This document shows, piece after piece, positions 53,496-63,858 of a stretch of DNA of 64,000 bases. Location of the stretch: positions 3,472,001 through 3,536,000 of the forward strand of contig NZ_JAGYHC010000001.1 of the NCBI RefSeq assembly GCF_019837165.1, given 5' to 3'. Below the pieces are notes generated by a model. That model saw nothing but the letters and a program-made list of their open reading frames with translations. It was not told the DNA's origin and ran no database searches. The position numbers and the translations under genes are program-made. This stretch comes from Virgibacillus sp. NKC19-3 (lineage in GTDB: Bacteria; Bacillota; Bacilli; Bacillales; Amphibacillaceae). The first letter of the stretch is position 1, and each line of letters opens with the position of its first letter.

Positions 53496-53533
53496 AACCA
53501 TCCCCGCGATCAGTTTAAATCAAGGGGATGGTT
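53496..53533. terminator. Bidirectional terminator between the DASS transporter and the FIMAH enzyme cluster
   Basis: Perfect 10-bp stem aaccatcccc / ggggatggtt with an 18-nt loop, T-rich on the plus strand after it and tttcttttag on the minus strand. Confidence 0.8.
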
Positions 53534-53539
53534 CTTTCA

Positions 53540-56221
53540 TTATTGATCCAAATCACTCACCATAATCTCGTCAAATTGGATAATATTACTGCTGTCGTAG
53601 TCAAAGTTGATGACACTCATAAGCGCTTTGCCCGATGGATTGGCCAATTGTTCATCCTCAGAAAGTGTATGGACCATATCCCACGATTCCGGTTCTTCCA
53701 TACTATCATCCCAGAGACGAACCATCAGATCATCGTCTTTCGCACGCAATCGTAGCCAATGCCACTCATCGGTCATATTTGCATCCATCTGATTGAAGTT
53801 ATTGGAACTGTTGTCATATCTACCTCTAAGAATCAATTCATCCGTGTTGAAATTCAACTCAATACCTAAGCCGTTTACAGGCATTGAACTACCGGAGGAA
53901 AATGCATCAGACTGAACCCACAACCTCAACCGTTGATTATTTCCTATCTCATTAGCTCGGAACCGAACCAGCAATTCGCTATTTTCCGTCTCTTCCATAG
54001 CTGGAATTATACGACCGTAAGTGCTGCCATTACCCTGCTTACGGGTATCTACTTCCACTTTTCCAGTGTGTTCTTGGATCGTATATGTTACGCCATCCGG
54101 GTCCGACGGCCAAGAATGAAGGTTCACAAAATCAGATGAATCCCAGTTGCTTCCGTCTTTACCAATGAATCCTTGGTAAAAAACATTATCCAGATCCTTC
54201 AAGTAACTGTCAGCTTGTGGTTCAATCAGATTATAGGCTTCCGCTGTGATCAGGTCGTTTTCTGATTGATGATCAAGCAACTCCAATAAACTCTCCAGAT
54301 GTTTGATAACCTTCTCCGTCTCGTCCTGTTCTTCGAATTGACTAATCGCTGTCAAATGAAGATTTACAGAACGAGCAGCTTCGTCGTTCGCAAACTCTCC
54401 GTCTTCTTCAAAACGGTCAACTAGTATCTGCAAATTTGCCAAACTTGGTTCTCCAAGCGGCGGCTCCACCTCACTTGGGTCTGAACAATCATCCAATGGC
54501 AAGCCGTCCAACTCGTTATACTTTGCCTGTTCATCGAGCAGAAACGGGACTACCGTCATCATCGGCTGATTCATTGTAACCAATATACCGTTCTCACTGA
54601 CTTGTTCCGTTTGTAATGAAAATAAATCAATGTGCCGACGTAGTTCTTCTGCTTGTGAAGTATTTATAAGATAGCCACATGCAGCGGGATCTAACACTGC
54701 CCACTCTGGAGGTTCTCGATTGTCTGCTCCATCGAGATAGAACGGTTCCTGATTTGCGCCATCCCTTGCCCTGCGATCTGGAGCATCAGTCACAGCCTCC
54801 ACGACATCATCGAGCCGTTCCCGATAAAACCGCATTACTGACAATGCTGTTTCCATCTGCATCTCTACCCGAGCTTCCGGTTTTGCTCTACCTGCTGATT
54901 CCGTAATCAAACCTAGGCCATGCCGTAAGCCAAGCATATTTGACAATACGCGCTCGTTTCCGTTCGTGCTTGAATTAGGGGATCCATATATGCCCGTGGT
55001 AAATCCCGCTTCTTCAACGTCTGGCATCAAATAATCTTGTACCATTTCTTTACTTAACGCTTGTAATGATTGGTCAATATTTAAGTTACGTGGCCATACC
55101 ATCTCCATTTCCGGACTAGCTCCACTTGGACGTTCATGTGCATCAATCGTAATATCCGGTTGGAATTGATTCATGACTTCTGCTACTATCTGTATTTCAG
55201 GTGTAGCCAAGTTGAGATGGTCACGGTTGTTATCAATACCTAAACTGTTTCCTCTTTGATTAGCTTCTCGTCCATCCGGATTCGGTGTAGGCATGAAAAG
55301 AATTGTTGTTTCACGCATCTGCTCCAATAACTCAGGATCATCCGTAAAAGCTAAATCCCGCAATAATTGCAATGCCATTTCCTGTCCTGCAGGCTCGTTA
55401 CCGTGTGGTGTTCCTTGTATCAATATATTCCGCCCATTTGCAATTTCTTCATCCGATAGTGGCTCCGGATAACCAACACGTACTAAATGGATTGGCCTTC
55501 CCTCTATGGAAGTGCCCTCTTCCGTGTACGTGACCCTTTCTGACTCTGCAGCGATTTTTTCCAGGAAAGCGGCTTCCTCAGAAGGGACTGTCCATCCATT
55601 CCCATTTCGCTGCTCAAACCCTGTCTTCGTTGAATTCGGATCAAACTCATTTTGTATGAATACTTTTTCACCAACGTCTCCTACTTCTGCTTGTGTCTGT
55701 GGGCCATTCGGGCATGTTACTGGTTCTGCATCAGCTTCACCTAGTAATTGCAATCCAGCCGTGCGTGAAATGGATAACAATGGGATCGATGCAGATGTAG
55801 ACATGGTTGACGGAAAAGCATCGCAACCATCGTTGTCTGTACGCTGATCATTAAATATGAGTACCGCCGAGTAATCTTTTCCCTCTATGTTATCCATTTT
55901 CTCAACGAAAAGACAGTCGCCTCGTTCCACTAATGCTATATTGTCTTCCTTTGTAGCTTCAGGAACAGAAGCATGGTCATCACACGCCGAGCCAACGTAA
56001 ACAACTTCTCCATCAATGGGACCAACATCCTTAATATTTGGCGTTTCTTCTGACCAATAATAGTCAAAAGATGTGCCTGCTAATGGACCACTTGCAATCT
56101 CTGATATATACCCCTCTCTGTCCTCCCCTGATGCACCGATTCCGGATAATGATTCCATCGCAACAAATAGGAATAAAATCAACATGAAAGAAATGGTAAT
56201 CTTCCCATTCCGTTTTTGCAT
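53540..56221 (-). CDS. Secreted M14 carboxypeptidase-like protein with PA, FIMAH and C-terminal beta domain
   Basis: 893 residues from ATG 56221 (gggagg, 8 nt). Signal peptide, then a PA domain (about 75-200 of the longer frame; GSACDDHA, ALVERGDCLFVEKM). The M14 domain (about 225-490) has GTPHGNEPAG zinc His and Glu, PNPDGREAN, NNRDHLN, DAHERPSG zinc His and ITESAG with the catalytic Glu. A FIMAH helical domain (about 604-690: ILVDRFEEDGEFANDEAARS, HLTAISQFEEQ) precedes a beta-rich module (692-904) shared with the next two genes. FIMAH is a domain found on exported Bacilli enzymes; its role is unknown to me. The last gene of four tandem FIMAH enzymes. Probably cuts C-terminal residues of unusual peptides outside the cell. 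Confidence 0.9.
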   Translation of the reverse strand: MQKRNGKITISFMLILFLFVAMESLSGIGASGEDREGYISEIASGPLAGTSFDYYWSEETPNIKDVGPIDGEVVYVGSACDDHASVPEATKEDNIALVERGDCLFVEKMDNIEGKDYSAVLIFNDQRTDNDGCDAFPSTMSTSASIPLLSISRTAGLQLLGEADAEPVTCPNGPQTQAEVGDVGEKVFIQNEFDPNSTKTGFEQRNGNGWTVPSEEAAFLEKIAAESERVTYTEEGTSIEGRPIHLVRVGYPEPLSDEEIANGRNILIQGTPHGNEPAGQEMALQLLRDLAFTDDPELLEQMRETTILFMPTPNPDGREANQRGNSLGIDNNRDHLNLATPEIQIVAEVMNQFQPDITIDAHERPSGASPEMEMVWPRNLNIDQSLQALSKEMVQDYLMPDVEEAGFTTGIYGSPNSSTNGNERVLSNMLGLRHGLGLITESAGRAKPEARVEMQMETALSVMRFYRERLDDVVEAVTDAPDRRARDGANQEPFYLDGADNREPPEWAVLDPAACGYLINTSQAEELRRHIDLFSLQTEQVSENGILVTMNQPMMTVVPFLLDEQAKYNELDGLPLDDCSDPSEVEPPLGEPSLANLQILVDRFEEDGEFANDEAARSVNLHLTAISQFEEQDETEKVIKHLESLLELLDHQSENDLITAEAYNLIEPQADSYLKDLDNVFYQGFIGKDGSNWDSSDFVNLHSWPSDPDGVTYTIQEHTGKVEVDTRKQGNGSTYGRIIPAMEETENSELLVRFRANEIGNNQRLRLWVQSDAFSSGSSMPVNGLGIELNFNTDELILRGRYDNSSNNFNQMDANMTDEWHWLRLRAKDDDLMVRLWDDSMEEPESWDMVHTLSEDEQLANPSGKALMSVINFDYDSSNIIQFDEIMVSDLDQ

Positions 56222-56324
56222 TAGAGTTCCTCCCTTAAAAATGTCAAATTTCAACCCATAATAATCACCCCAGTGGCAAGCAAATACCTGCCACTAAGGT
56301 ATTATTCTTATAAAATCTGATATT

Positions 56325-59132
56325 CTATCGCCATTCCTCAAGCAAATTATCAGCATGTGATTTCAACGTACTGGATGCTTGTTCTGTAATCTGTTCATCT
56401 TCTTCCTGATGATCCAGTAGCGTTTTAAAGTTCTCCATATGCGTGATCGCTTTATCTATCTTGTTTTCCTTTTCATAATGTTCAATAGATGATAAGTGAG
56501 TGCTAAGCAACCTTGCTGCTTCCTCATTTACAATTTCACCACTGGATTCATATTGTTCAATAAGATCCATCATCAATTCAACATGTGATTCTTCGGGAGG
56601 AGGATCTTCTATCTCATCTCTATCAATGGCCATTGCGCTTCCTCCACCTCTTCTCTCCGGTTCTGCAGCAGCTCGAACTTTGCCATCTTCTAAAAATTCC
56701 AACCCTGTTGCCGCACTAATTCCTTGTACAGCTGTATCTGCGGTAAACGTATGCCCCATTTCTTCTAGTTCTGTTAAGAGTGATCCATACTCATCAAGAT
56801 AAATTTCTTCATATTGTGCATTTGCATGACTTAGGTTACGTTGTGATAACCGTGGCTCATTAATCGCCTCCGGTAAAGTCATACCAAAATCAAGCTGACC
56901 AAGGATGATCTGTGTTATTGTTGTTATAATCCGATTACTGGATGGTGCTCCTACCGTCATCACAGGGGCTCCATCTTTAGTCACAATAGTAGGAGACATC
57001 GCACTTAGCATCCGGAGTCCAGGTCTTGGAGCATTGGGATGATCCGGATCTTGCATTGGTGTCCGGCCTGAAAATCCATTATTTAATATAAACCCATAAC
57101 CAGGTACGACCATTCCATTTCCTGCAATGCTGTTAATCGTCTTCGTATAACTGACAACATTTCCATCCTTATCACTTACAGATAAATGAATGGTTTCTGT
57201 AGGTATTTCTTCCTCCGCTTCCTGAGAAGAAGCAGCATTCTGTTCCAGTGTTGTCAGTTGTTTATCGTCAGCCAAATCGTTTACGGTAATTTCGTCAAAG
57301 GAAATCGTGTTCTCACTGTCTTTATCAAAATTGATCATACTTATAAGCGCTTTCCCTAAGGCGTTATTTGCTTTTTCCTCTGCGGATAACTCATGCGAGA
57401 TATCCCAATCTTCTGGTTCGTTACGATCATCATTCCAAAGACGGGCACGAAGTTGATCACCTTCAGCTCTAAGCCGTAACCAGTGCCAATCTGTAGACAG
57501 ATCCGTATCGACTGTATCAAATGTCGTTGAGCTTCCTTCTTCTCTTCCGCGTAGCATTAACTGTTGGTTGTCTGCTCGCAATTCAATTCCATACCCATTT
57601 TCCGCCATGGAACTTCCGGAACTAAATCGATCCGCCTGTGTCCATAATCGCAAACGCTGATCATTCCCCAATTCATCAAATTTGAATTTCACCAAAACTT
57701 CACTCTCAGATAGGGCTCCCATATCCGGAGTAATCGCCCCGTAAGCACTTCCATTATCCTCCTGCCTCTTATCCATAGCGACTTGCCCAGTATTTCCCTG
57801 TATGCTGAAATCAGCACCGGGCGGGGTTTGCGGCCATGAATGGAGATTGGCAAATATAGTCGGATCCCATTGATCTCCATCATTTCCTTCAAAATTATGA
57901 TAGAAACCGATACCTTCATCTTCTGGTGATTCCGGCTCTTTATCCGGGTCTTCTTCATATGGTAATGGATCTCCTGGAGCCACCTGGCCAATAGAAGCAA
58001 CATCGTCCGATATCTTTTGCCTCCGCTCAGCCGCGTAACCCTTTGACATTAAACCATTTACCGGAACCATCGTATGTGCTGGATCTCCCATATACATGCT
58101 ACGGTCCGCAAATGCATACCTAGAAGCTTCAAGAAAATAATGATATCGCTGAACTTCAGACATGTTTTCAAGATCATAAGCTTCCAAGATATTTAGTATT
58201 TCACTGATTGTGACACCACTTGATGTTGGAGGTACACTATAAATATCATGACCGTGATATGTCGTATGCGTAGGCTCTTTCGAAAGCACTTCATAATTCT
58301 TAAGGTCATTCATCGACATATCCCCTGCCAACACCTCCCTGTCCGGGTTATCCACCGTAGGAGGATTGTGGATTGTGTCAATAATTGCCTCGGCAATCTC
58401 TCCATCATAAAATACAGAACTTCCGTGTTCAGCAATTAAACGATACGTATTAGCAATATCCGGATTTTTCATAATAGTACCTTCTTCCGGTACTTCTCCG
58501 TTTTCATCCAGATAAAGTTCTTTAGAGCTTTCAAAAAGCCGTAATTTATCGGCATTTTCCTCTGTTTCCCGAATAAAATTGGGGTCAGCTGCAAACCCTT
58601 CTTCGGCAACATCTATTGCTGGTTGCAACACGTCACTTAAGGACATTGTTCCGTGTTCCTCCAGTGCCTGCTCCCAACCTTTGACCATCCCTGGTATACC
58701 TGTTGCCATTCCGCTAGAACTACGAACAGCCGTAGGATAGAGCTCTCCTGTATCCGGGTTCACAAAGGAGTCCGGACCAAAATTTTCACTTGTTTCTATT
58801 ACATGGTCCAAAACAACAGAACGATCTTCCTCAGCTAAGTAAATATTCATAAAGCCTCCACCGCCAATCCCGCCGGAAAAGGGCCGTGTTACACCTTGCG
58901 TTGCAGATGCTGCCACAGCTGCATCAATTGCATTACCACCTTGTTTCAGGATCTCAGTCGCTGCGTCGGAGCTTTTCACATGCTCTGTTGCGACTGCCCC
59001 TCCGTCCCCAACAGCCGTTGGATTTTGTCTTGGGTCTCCTGTATCCCCTGCAAAACCGGTTATGGGAACAGTTACGGTTAAAAGAATAATTAGAAATACA
59101 GAAGTTAATGGCCTCATCCTTCTTTTGGTCAT
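56325..59132 (-). CDS. Secreted gamma-glutamyltransferase with domain insertion and FIMAH domain
   Basis: 935 residues against about 580 in normal GGT. Signal peptide; GGT large-subunit part at 35-405 (TEILKQGGNAIDAAVAA, GGIGGGGFMNIY, PPTSSGVTISEILNI); a beta-rich insert at about 409-625; then the small-subunit part beginning at the maturation Thr647 (ETIHLSVSDKDGNVVSYT), LSAMSPTIVTKDG and C-terminal FIMAH (850-935). The insert stands just before the self-cleavage site, where the linker of the large subunit ends. The oxyanion-hole sequence usually GG reads GAPSSNRI here, a notable change. It hydrolyses or transfers gamma-glutamyl groups (glutathione, gamma-peptides or poly-gamma-glutamate). 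ATG 7 nt from aaaggag; a hairpin terminator lies just upstream. Confidence 0.88.
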   Translation of the reverse strand: MTKRRMRPLTSVFLIILLTVTVPITGFAGDTGDPRQNPTAVGDGGAVATEHVKSSDAATEILKQGGNAIDAAVAASATQGVTRPFSGGIGGGGFMNIYLAEEDRSVVLDHVIETSENFGPDSFVNPDTGELYPTAVRSSSGMATGIPGMVKGWEQALEEHGTMSLSDVLQPAIDVAEEGFAADPNFIRETEENADKLRLFESSKELYLDENGEVPEEGTIMKNPDIANTYRLIAEHGSSVFYDGEIAEAIIDTIHNPPTVDNPDREVLAGDMSMNDLKNYEVLSKEPTHTTYHGHDIYSVPPTSSGVTISEILNILEAYDLENMSEVQRYHYFLEASRYAFADRSMYMGDPAHTMVPVNGLMSKGYAAERRQKISDDVASIGQVAPGDPLPYEEDPDKEPESPEDEGIGFYHNFEGNDGDQWDPTIFANLHSWPQTPPGADFSIQGNTGQVAMDKRQEDNGSAYGAITPDMGALSESEVLVKFKFDELGNDQRLRLWTQADRFSSGSSMAENGYGIELRADNQQLMLRGREEGSSTTFDTVDTDLSTDWHWLRLRAEGDQLRARLWNDDRNEPEDWDISHELSAEEKANNALGKALISMINFDKDSENTISFDEITVNDLADDKQLTTLEQNAASSQEAEEEIPTETIHLSVSDKDGNVVSYTKTINSIAGNGMVVPGYGFILNNGFSGRTPMQDPDHPNAPRPGLRMLSAMSPTIVTKDGAPVMTVGAPSSNRIITTITQIILGQLDFGMTLPEAINEPRLSQRNLSHANAQYEEIYLDEYGSLLTELEEMGHTFTADTAVQGISAATGLEFLEDGKVRAAAEPERRGGGSAMAIDRDEIEDPPPEESHVELMMDLIEQYESSGEIVNEEAARLLSTHLSSIEHYEKENKIDKAITHMENFKTLLDHQEEDEQITEQASSTLKSHADNLLEEWR

Positions 59133-59149
59133 ATTAATTCTCCTTTGCT

Positions 59150-59198
59150 TTATAAAAAATCTCCCTGTAACAAATCATTTGCTGTCTGTCACAGGGAG
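59150..59198 (-). terminator. Terminator or attenuator between the amidohydrolase and GGT genes
   Basis: On the minus strand ctccctgt (59198-59191) pairs with acagggag (59168-59161), followed by attttttat. It lies only 20-30 bp before the GGT ribosome site, leaving no room for a downstream promoter. Confidence 0.75.
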
Positions 59199-59245
59199 TT
59201 ACCCTTTGCGTCAAAGTTGCTTTCTACTATCCTGGAAAAGGAACT

Positions 59246-62119
59246 TTATTGCCAAGCTTCAAGAATATGATCGGCATGGGTTGCAAGCACAACAGCTGCC
59301 TCCTCAGAAATCTCCCCATTTGTTTCCTGGTAATCAAGTAATTGCTTAAAGCTATTTAAATGTCTAATAGCTTTATCCATGGAGCCGGTAGATTCATAGT
59401 GAGCAATGGTAGTTAAATGTGTTTGCAGTTTTCCGGCCGATTCATCGCTACCTATATCTTCATCACTCCTGAATTCATCTACAAGCGCTTTCATATCTTC
59501 AATACTTAATGGTTCTGCCTCACCCAAAAATCCTCTAATTTCATTCTCCCCTTCAATTTGAATCGTAACGGTTGGACGCTTATCTGTTGCCATCGTCTCA
59601 TTTTCATCGATGATCACCATGAACGTACGCTCTTCATTTTCATTTAATAAACCACGTCCGGTAAAGCTTGTCCACCCATCTGTCACCTGCACTTTTCCGA
59701 ATCCGGTTGCATTAAAATTCATCTCTGCATCCTCATCTTGAACAGTAAATGAGCCATCCGCATTTTTATCCGTTTCCCCCTGCTGAATAGACAACTCCAT
59801 TTCAACGCCTGTTAAGACATCCGATTCATCTATCTTGTAGAGGTGACCTTCTTCCTTTACATCAACAGATTCCGTAGTCATCGGTCGAGTTGGCATGTTC
59901 GCAGCTCGTTTCAAGGCCTTACCAGATTGCAAACCGGTCAATTCCCCATCTTCAAGTGCGAAGTCGCCATTGACTAGAACATAGTCTATTCCATCCGCAT
60001 ATTGCTTCGGCTCATCAAACGTTCCATTATCCACAATGGTATCCGGATCAAAAATCGTGATGTCTGCTGCCATGCCTTCAGCAATAAATCCTCGATCCGT
60101 CATTCCACTAATGGTTGCCGGTAACCCTGTCATTTTTTGAACCATTGTTTCCCAATCTGTAAGTCCTTCTTCCCTTACATATTGGCTAAGCGCTCGTGGC
60201 TGAGTTCCGTATCTTCTTGGATGAGTACTGCTTGATGTTGTTGCCCCTCCATCGGATGCAATAGCCGTAGTCGGATTTTGAAGAATCCGTGCAAAGTCTT
60301 CTTCATGGCCGAAACTATAAATAGATCTCAAACTTCCTTCTGTTTCCAAAATTCTCATGGTTGTTTCACCAGGTGTCAATTCTTCTTCCTCTCCATCCTC
60401 TTGTGGTGCAGGAATTTCCTGTACCATGTTCCACTCATCCGGTTCTTCTTCCTCGTCGTTCCATAGACGTACCATCAGTTGATCATCCTCAACCCGAATT
60501 CTCAATGACTGCCAATCTGTTGTCATGTTGGCATCTACACTGCCATAATTTGTTGAATTACCGTCTTCTCTTCCATATAAAGCAATAGTGTCAGTTCCAA
60601 GGTGTAATTCAATACCATAACCATTGACAGGGAAAGAACTTCCTGAACTAAAATCATCAGCTTGCAGCCAGAATCGGAGTCGCTGGTCGTTATCCACATC
60701 ACTAGCTCTAAAGCGCATATATGCTTCACTGTTATTTTCCAACTCTTCCATTACAGGTGTAATTTTTCCATAAGCACTGGCATTTCCTTGGGTTCTTTCG
60801 TCAATGTGAATTTTCCCTTTATTCTCCTCTACCAGATAGCTTACCGCATTGGATGGATAGGAAGACAATTGGTCAAATGCTTCAGATTCCCATTCATCAC
60901 TTCCGGCGAAATCATATGCAAATGCCGTATCGCCATCTGAGTCCTTCACGTTCACCTCATCAACATCAATGGTTATATCACTGTCATAATCGAAGTTGAG
61001 AACACTTAACAGCATTTGTCCATTTCTGTCATAGTTGAAACCTTCTTCCATATAATCAGCAAGGGTCATTTGCTTAGTAGGGAAATAGACATCTTCTGGG
61101 CCCTCTACCCGGCTATGCATAATTTCTTCAATTTCTTCGGCAATCTGTGGACGAAGCTCTGGATCAGAAAAACGTTCCAGCATCGCATCTCGCCCTCCAT
61201 CTTCTACCCATGGCGGGACAATTGCCGTTAGACCTGTTTGACTGCGAATATATGGATAGACATCGGCTGTCGCATAGGTTCCACGTGCATTTGCTTCCTC
61301 AATCATTCCAACTGTTTCTGCCGATTTTCCCCAGTTATCCGGACCCATCACCTTCATATGAGTAATATGAGGTACAAGCCCTGCTTCTTCTCCGATTTCA
61401 ATTGTTTCAGCCGTTGCCTCTACAACTTCATTGTTTTCATTGCGAATGTGGTGTTGAAAATATGTCCGCCATTGATCTGCTACACTAACGACATCGATGA
61501 CTTCTTCCGTTGTTGCATAATAAGCAGGTCTGTAGAATAATCCGGCCGAAACCCCAAAACCGCCATCCTCCATGCCTTGAATGATCAATTTCTGCATCTC
61601 ATTGATTTCTTCTTCCGTTGCTTCTCGATCTTCTTCACCAATGACTTCTTCCCAAACCGAATTAAATCCAATATGGGCACCAATGTTTATACCCAGCCCT
61701 GCATCTTCAAGTGCAAAACGTTCTTGAAGATCTGTTGGTCCCCCTCCATCAACATTTAACATCTCTGTCGTGACCCCTTGCGTAAGGGAGCTCTGTGCTT
61801 CTTGCAGTGCTGAGGTTGACGCGTGACTGTGAAGATCAATAAAACCGGGGGATACAAATAGACCATTTGCATCCACTTCTTTTTCTGCAACATAATCTCT
61901 CAAATCGCCGATATGGGCGATAATGCCATTTCGTATCCCAATGTCGGCTTCATATTTCGACAGACCAGAACCATCGATGATCGTTCCATTTCTAATAATT
62001 TTGTCAAAGTCCACTTCATCCTGAGATTGCGCAGCAATTCCAACGGAACCCTGTAAGAATGTACCTAATAGGAACACAATCATTGCCACTATGATCGACG
62101 TTTGGCGCACCCTAAACAT
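59246..62119 (-). CDS. Secreted D-aminoacylase/dihydroorotase-like amidohydrolase with permuted beta-domain insertion and FIMAH
   Basis: 957 residues from ATG 62119 (gaggagg, 7 nt). Signal peptide; amidohydrolase start DFDKIIRNGTIIDGSG; zinc motif FIDLHSHAST; GVSAGLFYRPAYYATTEEV; PHITHMKVMG; then after an insert (about 368-580) the domain resumes with ARILQNPTTAIASDGG (catalytic Asp), RGFIAEGMAADITIFDP and YVLVNG. N-acyl-D-amino-acid deacylases have this plan without the insert. A short beta segment follows (750-865), then FIMAH (870-957). In the insert the final strand of the shared beta module (NGQMLLSVLNFDYDSDI) precedes its core rather than following it. It probably deacylates N-acyl-D-amino acids outside the cell. 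Confidence 0.88.
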   Translation of the reverse strand: MFRVRQTSIIVAMIVFLLGTFLQGSVGIAAQSQDEVDFDKIIRNGTIIDGSGLSKYEADIGIRNGIIAHIGDLRDYVAEKEVDANGLFVSPGFIDLHSHASTSALQEAQSSLTQGVTTEMLNVDGGGPTDLQERFALEDAGLGINIGAHIGFNSVWEEVIGEEDREATEEEINEMQKLIIQGMEDGGFGVSAGLFYRPAYYATTEEVIDVVSVADQWRTYFQHHIRNENNEVVEATAETIEIGEEAGLVPHITHMKVMGPDNWGKSAETVGMIEEANARGTYATADVYPYIRSQTGLTAIVPPWVEDGGRDAMLERFSDPELRPQIAEEIEEIMHSRVEGPEDVYFPTKQMTLADYMEEGFNYDRNGQMLLSVLNFDYDSDITIDVDEVNVKDSDGDTAFAYDFAGSDEWESEAFDQLSSYPSNAVSYLVEENKGKIHIDERTQGNASAYGKITPVMEELENNSEAYMRFRASDVDNDQRLRFWLQADDFSSGSSFPVNGYGIELHLGTDTIALYGREDGNSTNYGSVDANMTTDWQSLRIRVEDDQLMVRLWNDEEEEPDEWNMVQEIPAPQEDGEEEELTPGETTMRILETEGSLRSIYSFGHEEDFARILQNPTTAIASDGGATTSSSTHPRRYGTQPRALSQYVREEGLTDWETMVQKMTGLPATISGMTDRGFIAEGMAADITIFDPDTIVDNGTFDEPKQYADGIDYVLVNGDFALEDGELTGLQSGKALKRAANMPTRPMTTESVDVKEEGHLYKIDESDVLTGVEMELSIQQGETDKNADGSFTVQDEDAEMNFNATGFGKVQVTDGWTSFTGRGLLNENEERTFMVIIDENETMATDKRPTVTIQIEGENEIRGFLGEAEPLSIEDMKALVDEFRSDEDIGSDESAGKLQTHLTTIAHYESTGSMDKAIRHLNSFKQLLDYQETNGEISEEAAVVLATHADHILEAWQ

Positions 62120-62171
62120 GAGCATTCCTCCTCATTAATCCGTACTGATTCTTTGTCTACGAAGTGAGTAT

Positions 62172-62267
62172 GGCTGGGATAAGGCAAAAGCGTTTAACGA
62201 AAAAATGCACGTTTCCGAAGCGATGTATATTCGGAATTTATTTGTTCAAAACACTTTTGTGCCAACC
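62172..62267 (-). repeat. Short (about 96-bp) internally deleted relative of the 266-bp repeat
   Basis: On the minus strand it begins ggttggcacaaaagtgtttt, then gaacaaataaattccgaata and tacatcgcttc, the left end of the 266-bp repeat (compare 18501-18553), then jumps to a right end with ctgggataag reading inward. It holds only the two ends, like a deletion derivative. Located between two FIMAH enzyme genes. Confidence 0.65.
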
Positions 62268-62317
62268 TCTTTGGGTGTCTTCATCGTATTTTTCACTTCA
62301 AACCTACAGAAAAAATA

Positions 62318-63715
62318 TTACCACTTGTCAATCAAATAATCAGCATCATCCTTGAGCCTATTATAGGCCTCATCCGTAATCAACGCGTTCTCTTTCTGAT
62401 CCTCAAGTAATAGTTTAAAGCTTTCCGTATGTTTAAGGACCTTTTCTTCGAGTTCCTTATCTTCGTAATAACTCATAGCGGATAAATGAGTCATTAAGGA
62501 TTGCGCAACATTATCATCCTCAAGCTCGCCTTCGTTCTCGAAACGCTCAACAAGTATTTTCATATCAGATGCACGTTCGGTCCAATACTTAGGCAGATTA
62601 AGGAAGTCATCACCATTGAGATCGTCGATAGAGTCATCTGCCATACGACTGGCAATCCCCCATAGACCATTCTCCACACGATCTATCAATGCTTGATCAT
62701 AGCCATATTCAGGTTGTTGACCAGGCATTTCAAATAGTACGGTCGCAGTACCATTAAGCGCAAATGAAGACCTAGCCTGACCGGGTAAATCACGCTCCTC
62801 TGGGTGTAAATAACGGGCCACACCGGGTTCCTCATTATCGGAAAGTTCTTTTACGCCAAGTGCAGCTGCCAGCGAATAGCGCATAGACTTGTCTTGATCC
62901 AATTTCAACCAATCATCGTATTTTGGACTATCGTCAGGTCCTAATGGTGGGTAGTCTATTGCAATCGTGACATCTTCACCCGTTTCGTTGGTCTTTGGGG
63001 TTCCCATGTGATGAAGATCAACGAAAGCTTCTACTTCACTAAACTCAGCTTGCAGGTCCAAGTACAAGTCTCTGAGAATTTGAGATTCATTTGTCAGGAA
63101 AAACCCAGGGTCATCTCCCGTGCCTGGTAAATCTTCCAGCTGTGGTTCATAGTTCAAATTCGGATTAAAGTCCCGGTTAATATCAAAGCCTCCATTACTT
63201 TCGCTATAGTGCCAGGCAGGCGCTGCACCTTCAAGATGGGGGTAGTTCATAATGACGTCTTCCCACGAGAAAACGTTCTGCCGTTGGGTTATCGCGGCAC
63301 CGTCAACGTTTAGACGTGGCACGGCAACTATTGTAACCTCCTCACGAACCGCTTGTGCACGTGAACTATCGCTAGTTCCAAGTATTTCAAGCATCTGGAT
63401 CAATGCCTCAGGGCCGCTCTTCTCATTACCGTGTATATTACCATTAATTAACAACACTTGATCACCTTCACCCACACGAGCAGCGTAAATTTCACGATCT
63501 TGGTGTGAGTGACCTATGACGTCGACCTCAACCTTGCCAGAACTCTCCTCTTTAATTTCTTCTAACTTTTGCTCCAGTTCCTCGTTGCTCATCCAATCGG
63601 CAACCACATTTTCACTATTACCTTGAGCTTGAGCACTTAATGTAGAAAATGGACTCCATAATAACAGTAAAATCGCAGTAAAAGAGACAATGGATTTCCA
63701 ACGTTTTGTTTGCAT
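62318..63715 (-). CDS. Secreted M14 family zinc carboxypeptidase with C-terminal FIMAH domain
   Basis: 465 residues from ATG 63715 (aaggagg, 6 nt). Signal peptide ending LSAQAQG. M14 domain: VIGHSHQDREIYAARVG, NGNIHGNEKSGPEAL (zinc His and Glu), VPRLNVDGA, FDINRDFNPN, FVDLHHMGTP (third zinc ligand) and LFEMPGQ (catalytic Glu). FIMAH at about 385-465 (MKILVERFENEGELEDDNVA, HLSAMSYYEDKEL). It has no beta insertion. First gene of the four-enzyme minus-strand cluster. Substrate may be a dipeptide or tripeptide end, as in gamma-D-glutamyl-meso-diaminopimelate peptidases, which share this family; this is inference. Confidence 0.9.
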   Translation of the reverse strand: MQTKRWKSIVSFTAILLLLWSPFSTLSAQAQGNSENVVADWMSNEELEQKLEEIKEESSGKVEVDVIGHSHQDREIYAARVGEGDQVLLINGNIHGNEKSGPEALIQMLEILGTSDSSRAQAVREEVTIVAVPRLNVDGAAITQRQNVFSWEDVIMNYPHLEGAAPAWHYSESNGGFDINRDFNPNLNYEPQLEDLPGTGDDPGFFLTNESQILRDLYLDLQAEFSEVEAFVDLHHMGTPKTNETGEDVTIAIDYPPLGPDDSPKYDDWLKLDQDKSMRYSLAAALGVKELSDNEEPGVARYLHPEERDLPGQARSSFALNGTATVLFEMPGQQPEYGYDQALIDRVENGLWGIASRMADDSIDDLNGDDFLNLPKYWTERASDMKILVERFENEGELEDDNVAQSLMTHLSAMSYYEDKELEEKVLKHTESFKLLLEDQKENALITDEAYNRLKDDADYLIDKW

Positions 63716-63858
63716 AATATCCTCCTTATCATGCATTTGAATTAACTAACAGTTACACTGTAGTTTAATAGGTTTTACTCCCCCTCCCTTTCGTAGAAAA
63801 AAATCTACAAATATAGGAAGAACCACATTTTCGAAATGAAACAAAAATGAAGGGGGGA

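Follow-up and report, generated by a model that had tools for sequence, protein, structure and literature searches.

A jellyroll 1,3-1,4-beta-glucanase of Fibrobacter succinogenes, reportedly described by Tsai in 2003, is said to be naturally permuted. Natural circular permutation within the concanavalin A-like (ConA-like) lectin/glucanase fold is also represented by concanavalin A as compared with favin, according to the available portions of a review (PMC3320104). The same portions describe permutation by duplication for saposin/swaposin and for DNA methyltransferases, in which a gene is duplicated and then trimmed and tandem forms survive in relatives, and they present the choice between duplication and fission-fusion models for the origin of natural circular permutants as still debated (PMC3320104). 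The locus described here lies in a stretch of 64,000 nucleotides from Virgibacillus sp. NKC19-3 that was analysed as a whole and is referred to as the window. It encodes a D-aminoacylase-type amidohydrolase (AH) with an inserted beta module, and the module also occurs in two neighbouring enzymes with its segments in a different order.

Gene neighbourhood and parts of the locus

Four adjacent genes on the minus strand of the window (53540-63736) encode an M14 carboxypeptidase, a gamma-glutamyltranspeptidase (GGT1), AH and a second M14 protein. All four enzymes carry a FIMAH domain and have N-termini that resemble signal peptides by eye, and a beta module of approximately 210 residues is common to the first three. 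The module consists of a body and a two-strand hairpin, which is C-terminal in the normal order. Promoter-like sites were no more frequent than in shuffles (21 versus a mean of 23.7). The features are as follows.

53540..56254, minus strand: M14 zinc carboxypeptidase, 904 aa, with PA, M14 and FIMAH followed by a C-terminal normal-order module
53543..54181, minus strand: normal-order module of M14, residues 692-904, with the hairpin at 874-903
56325..59132, minus strand: GGT1, gamma-glutamyltranspeptidase, 935 aa, with the module between the large and small subunits, and FIMAH
57273..57905, minus strand: normal-order module of GGT1, residues 410-620, body then hairpin
59246..62125, minus strand: AH, amidohydrolase of the D-aminoacylase type (959 aa), carrying the inserted permuted module and, at its C-terminus, FIMAH
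59258..59503, minus strand: FIMAH domain of AH (PF22888), residues 875-956, found also in the three neighbouring enzyme genes
60380..61042, minus strand: whole AH insert, approximately residues 362-582, delimited by comparison with insert-free AH relatives
60395..60922, minus strand: module body in AH, residues 402-577, 3' of the hairpin
60935..61024, minus strand: C-terminal hairpin of the module, placed first in AH, residues 368-397

The best solved relatives of the AH host core are D-aminoacylase 1m7j (E 1.5e-40; chain residues 8-93 and 133-293 aligned, with AH residues 37-360 as query) and N-acyl-D-glutamate deacylase 3gip (E 1.1e-34). The host catalytic domain is the same as in these enzymes, from which AH differs in having approximately 220 extra residues, the module, between the core and the C-terminal part, and in having a FIMAH domain. 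The insert is preceded by 'LADYMEE' and followed by 'LTPGETTM', and the corresponding site in an empty relative (G486) reads 'LADVAERED-VSPGEATM'. No Pfam match was found in the module region of whole proteins; when 29 module bodies were scanned alone, two matched 3keto-disac_hyd at E<=1, the better of them at 0.0024.

Segment order and predicted fold of the module

In BLASTP comparisons of whole proteins, AH residues 368-397 aligned with the C-terminal part of the module in M14 at 53 % over 30 residues (E 6e-6), and the AH body matched the bodies of M14 (E 5e-55) and GGT (E 2e-45). A hairpin profile trained solely on 16 normal-order copies, all near relatives, matched AH at residues 369-393 (30.5 bits, i-E 1e-11 in a one-sequence search), upstream of the body at 402-575, and gave no match above 1.5 bits elsewhere in AH; the four other single-copy AH proteins then collected scored 20.3-25.9 bits with the same profile. 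A DNA repeat search of 53500-63800 returned a hairpin repeat of 85 nt starting at 53548, 57272 and 60937 (the second and third being 71 % and 61 % identical to the first), as well as a body-end repeat of 40 nt starting at 53659, 57383 and 60409. Read along the minus strand, the body end precedes the hairpin in M14 and GGT, and the hairpin precedes the body end in AH. BLASTP, hairpin profile and DNA repeats therefore agree with the preliminary description, which had placed the C-terminal segment ahead of the rest of the module in AH, and the AH module consists of the homologous segments of the M14/GGT1 module in rotated order. The range of residues 368-396 given there for the segment fits, although the 17 letters quoted for it cover only residues 368-384.

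The AH insert was modelled with seven permuted sequences and gave a confident beta-sandwich (pLDDT 83.5, pTM 0.83), and the M14 module was modelled with nine normal-order sequences (pLDDT 76.1, pTM 0.79, with pLDDT <50 for residues 1-28). Strands were mapped by sequence alignment, by eye, and 14 of the 15 AH-insert strands had a partner, in rotated order, in the M14 model, which has 14 strands. AH-insert strands 7-14 and 21-31 correspond to M14-model strands 187-194 and 200-212, and AH from 37 on corresponds to M14 from 4 on; AH-insert strand 54-60 is partnerless and faces the low-confidence N-terminal stretch of the M14 model. The predicted models thus show the permuted strand order with the fold kept that the preliminary description had proposed to look for.

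The normal-order model aligned end to end with ConA-like structures, giving Z 16.0 and an rmsd of 2.7 over 175 aligned residues with ERGIC-53 (3wht), and Z 15.2 with CBM66 4b1m (chain 523-677, 11 % identity). The permuted model aligned with the same CBM66 at Z 10.7 over chain 518-654 only, the last hairpin being missing from the alignment. CBM66 and L-type lectins such as ERGIC-53 thus share fold and strand order with the normal-order module at Z 15-16, but with just 11-12 % identity in those alignments and with no Pfam family above the cut-off for the module. On the evidence of the models, the normal-order module is a predicted ConA-like lectin/glucanase beta-sandwich across the whole domain, and the same predicted fold is kept in the AH insert with different strand connectivity. 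From the ConA-like fold, the natural ends of the module are expected to adjoin in space, so that a chain in rotated order could complete one and the same sandwich, with new ends that would fit a host loop. Domain searches that depend on strand order can miss such permutants: Foldseek returned 259 PDB matches at E<=0.001 for the normal-order model, including ERGIC-53 at E 4e-7, and none at that threshold for the permuted AH model.

Second permuted host, tandem arrays and distribution

The preliminary description was correct that AH is permuted and missed the same permutation, at the same loop, in a second enzyme. This enzyme, GGT2, has GGT 4y23 as its best solved relative and was found in 33 family genomes, in nine of which a permuted module is inserted at approximately residue 126; a tenth filled GGT2 (G821) was obtained from the class search. 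The hairpin precedes the body in 10/10 filled GGT2 proteins, and the AH and GGT2 modules are cut at the same loop, which connects the 'EPxxW' and 'GKxLLS' strands. The 16-copy hairpin profile matched none of nine GGT2 copies, and in G074 AH2 and the G156 remnant it missed the second hairpin; a broader profile, built from all normal copies then collected, found the GGT2 hairpin in 9/9 (7.6-30.6 bits). The empty GGT2 site, PDMFLDEDG-NVIPFQERV or close variants, was read at 15 of the 20 loci scanned (the first 3 and 12 of 17 further), the 20 being part of all GGT2 matches, and the text pattern was unmatched at the remaining five. The genome of the window has a GGT2 with an empty site approximately 2.4 kb outside the window.

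Several other GGT2 loci were recorded. The match of an 882-aa GGT2 (G112:C83:2336-4207) breaks at residue 388/389, which suggests a different insert between the subunits, and a GGT2 adjoining AH (G053:C1:2628217-2630193) has 20 stop codons in the match and is apparently a decayed gene. One cluster in another family of the class (L153, genome G821) contains a permuted GGT2 and AH, a normal GGT1 and an AH remnant, and its close sequences suggest a transfer between families.

Relatives with tandem copies, which had been proposed as a check, exist in both phases. Normal-order modules are in tandem in the GGT1 of G068 (three copies), G677 and G696 (two copies each), and permuted modules, in the order hairpin-body-hairpin-body, are in tandem in the two-copy AH of G156 and G074 and in the AH remnants of G156 and G821. 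A junction profile of 208 positions was built solely from four hairpin-linker-body junctions of normal arrays. It spanned positions 1-3 to 201-207 in 10/10 GGT2 and 6/6 single-copy AH modules, and in 20/20 single-copy normal-order proteins its match began only at position 30-38. Coverage began only at position 21-34 in the two-copy AH modules and at 2-15 in the AH remnants, and the hairpins of these two groups therefore fit poorly or partly. The junctions in permuted GGT2 and single-copy AH modules are collinear with those between the copies of normal arrays. Half-way forms (body-hairpin-body or hairpin-body-hairpin) were absent from the 51 copies, a small sample.

The AH remnants, of 666 aa (L053:3609-5609, G156) and 656 aa (L153:14752-16722, G821), keep two permuted modules and FIMAH but have lost most of the catalytic domain, approximately 75 enzyme residues being left ahead of the module pair and a short AH piece behind it. 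They fit a module that would be useful by itself, and each is perhaps an enzyme turned binding protein. Polymer binding is suggested by the fold and by the attachment of the module to FIMAH-bearing enzymes. As a putative polymer- or cell-wall-binding accessory domain, the module would hold enzymes for gamma-glutamyl, peptide and N-acyl-D-amino-acid substrates near the polymer.

In the module search, 16 of 159 family genomes matched at E<=0.01, one of them (G078) with a stop-broken fragment; the order sample gave 9 matching genomes out of 397 and the class sample 5 out of 398. The order and class counts include the genome of the window, the class count also includes G192 from the order sample, and both samples were drawn from larger groups. 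The module-carrying Bacillus relatives are presumably halophiles. The 51 copies comprise 27 in normal order (21 in GGT1 and 6 in M14) and 24 permuted, of which 10 are in GGT2 and 14 are AH-type (6 single-copy AH, 4 two-copy AH and 4 in AH remnants). Three distant part-matches of 28-30 bits (L071, L100 and the 673-aa ORF of L058) and stop-broken matches in G078 and in G074 at 2050499 were excluded. Two of the part-matches, L071:2649-4763 (in the genome of the window, contig 1 near 1.864 Mb) and L100:3991-6126, are M14-like proteins with a distant match of 28 bits, and the former also carries FIMAH; the G074 fragment (G074:C1:2050499-2050642) lies just downstream of GGT1 and is perhaps a relic of another copy. 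A mobile element or phage was considered as the source of the module and was rejected, with no viral contig confirmed as encoding a relative (21 stretches fitted the pattern and 0 were confirmed) and no plasmid match found.

All 14 AH-hosted copies collected are already permuted and no normal-order AH copy was seen, which does not bear out the proposal that the permutation happened inside the TIM-barrel enzyme. For this reason the cut may instead have arisen in a tandem array outside AH and reached AH by transfer.

Origin of the permuted order and known systems

In the body trees (42 and 51 copies), the GGT2 modules fall together with those of tandem GGT1 (100/98), and the AH modules with those of M14 and near GGT1 (96/91 and 99/91). 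The AU test rejected a single permuted clade in all but one of six data sets (p 0.0012, 0.0044, 0.0046, 0.0035 and 0.00024); the sixth, from which G068, two-copy AH and long rows were left out, gave p 0.056. A single clade of all GGT1 modules was rejected as well (p 0.0019), and the modules therefore do not simply follow their host enzymes. Two order changes are needed with the hairpin included and three in body-only trees. All AH-hosted copies as one clade were tolerated, with weak support (62/86) in the full set and p 0.305 in the body tree. In the AH host tree, which was made without the later-found G821, the seven filled AH enzymes form one clade (100/99) apart from the five empty ones; in the GGT2 host tree, the filled enzymes form no resolved group, with three changes in the best tree and at least one of them forced. 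A weakly supported split of the AH-type copies, in which the single AH copies fall into a copy-1 group as opposed to a copy-2 group, hints at a two-copy AH ancestor, and the trees rejected no alternative for the tandem source (copy 1 or copy 2) of the AH single copy.

The AH insert is best explained, with a probability of roughly 0.7, as a natural circular permutant of a ConA-like beta-sandwich module that arose via duplication, probably twice. A normal-order module (body-hairpin) would have been duplicated in tandem, as it still is in the GGT1 of three relatives, and an out-of-phase stretch one period long (hairpin-linker-body) would have been retained in, or transferred to, a surface loop in a different exoenzyme. 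The last two-strand hairpin would thereby be moved to the front, and the old ends would be joined by a short linker like the inter-copy linker of the arrays. The two events, one in the AH line and one in the GGT2 line, would both have fallen at the 'EPxxW'/'GKxLLS' loop. The normal order is assumed to be ancestral, since the wider fold has it and so do all full modules in the eight other genomes of the order sample. More tentatively, and with somewhat less than an even chance, tandem arrays may be the source from which out-of-phase periods are drawn as the module moves from one exoenzyme gene to its neighbours, with permuted loop insertions as a repeatable outcome. In that case the permutation would have occurred independently two or more times at a single structural cut point, while arrays, permuted copies, empty sites and catalytically stripped forms survived side by side, and the family would document permutation by duplication in nature at the level of a domain.

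Of the alternatives, the least probable, and close to negligible, is that the upstream AH segment is an unrelated look-alike beta-hairpin or a relic that has ceased to fold with the body. Its shortness (30 residues) and modest pairwise E (6e-6) would allow this, but the profile match in AH reaches E 1e-11, the segment precedes the body in 6/6 single-copy AH and 10/10 GGT2 proteins, and the AH model is a confident single domain. AH homologues with the short segment and without the rest of the module, named in the preliminary description as a sign of independent origin, were not seen; all five close insert-free AH relatives, whose empty sites were read directly, lack the segment too, and independent origin was rejected on that ground. 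It is also very improbable that the permuted order is ancestral and the GGT1/M14 order derived. The three order changes in body-only trees leave room for a reversal, but ConA-like lectins and CBM66 have the normal order, and all full modules among the 397 genomes of the order sample, the genome of the window aside, are in normal order in GGT1 (8 genomes, including G182).

Rather more weight, within what is still unlikely, falls on a single permutation in AH or GGT2 that was then copied to the other enzyme. The cut loop is the same in both hosts, AH and GGT2 lie in one gene cluster in G156 and G821, the reduced data set gave p 0.056, and gene conversion after transfer could blur the split in the trees; against this stand the rejections in the other five data sets (p 0.00024-0.0046) and the grouping of each permuted set with normal-order copies, GGT2 with tandem GGT1, and AH with M14 and near GGT1. 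A comparably small chance is given to direct permutation without a lasting tandem stage, whether by insertion of a module-sized DNA circle into the host gene or by fission and swapped re-fusion. Such a route would account for the lack of partial-duplication intermediates among the 51 copies, and both cuts would be expected in one loop if it were the sole loop tolerating new ends, but tandem arrays are present in both lineages and the collinearity of the permuted and normal-array junctions in GGT2 and single-copy AH likewise speaks against it.

The module family offers a direct test of the duplication model because normal, tandem (in both phases), permuted and empty forms coexist in it, several of them in one cluster, and whether one loop is the only tolerated cut can also be tested on it. 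Literature searches returned nothing on the FIMAH domain and nothing joining permutation, duplication, CBM and concanavalin, and the matches listed, in the portions available, held nothing on this module. As far as the available portions of the sources describe them, concanavalin A/favin, the F. succinogenes glucanase and AH are all natural permutations in the ConA-like lectin/glucanase fold. Concanavalin A is permuted after translation and AH at the gene level, and unlike either concanavalin A or the glucanase, the permuted domain here lies within other enzymes, and relatives with tandem copies or empty sites survive alongside it. With saposin/swaposin and the DNA methyltransferases, again as described in the portions available, the module shares the duplicate-then-trim model and the tandem forms in relatives; it differs from both in being permuted at the domain level inside host proteins, apparently twice and at the same loop, with 0 half-trimmed forms among 51 copies. 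The kind of event is thus already known, and the case of AH and GGT2 is new.
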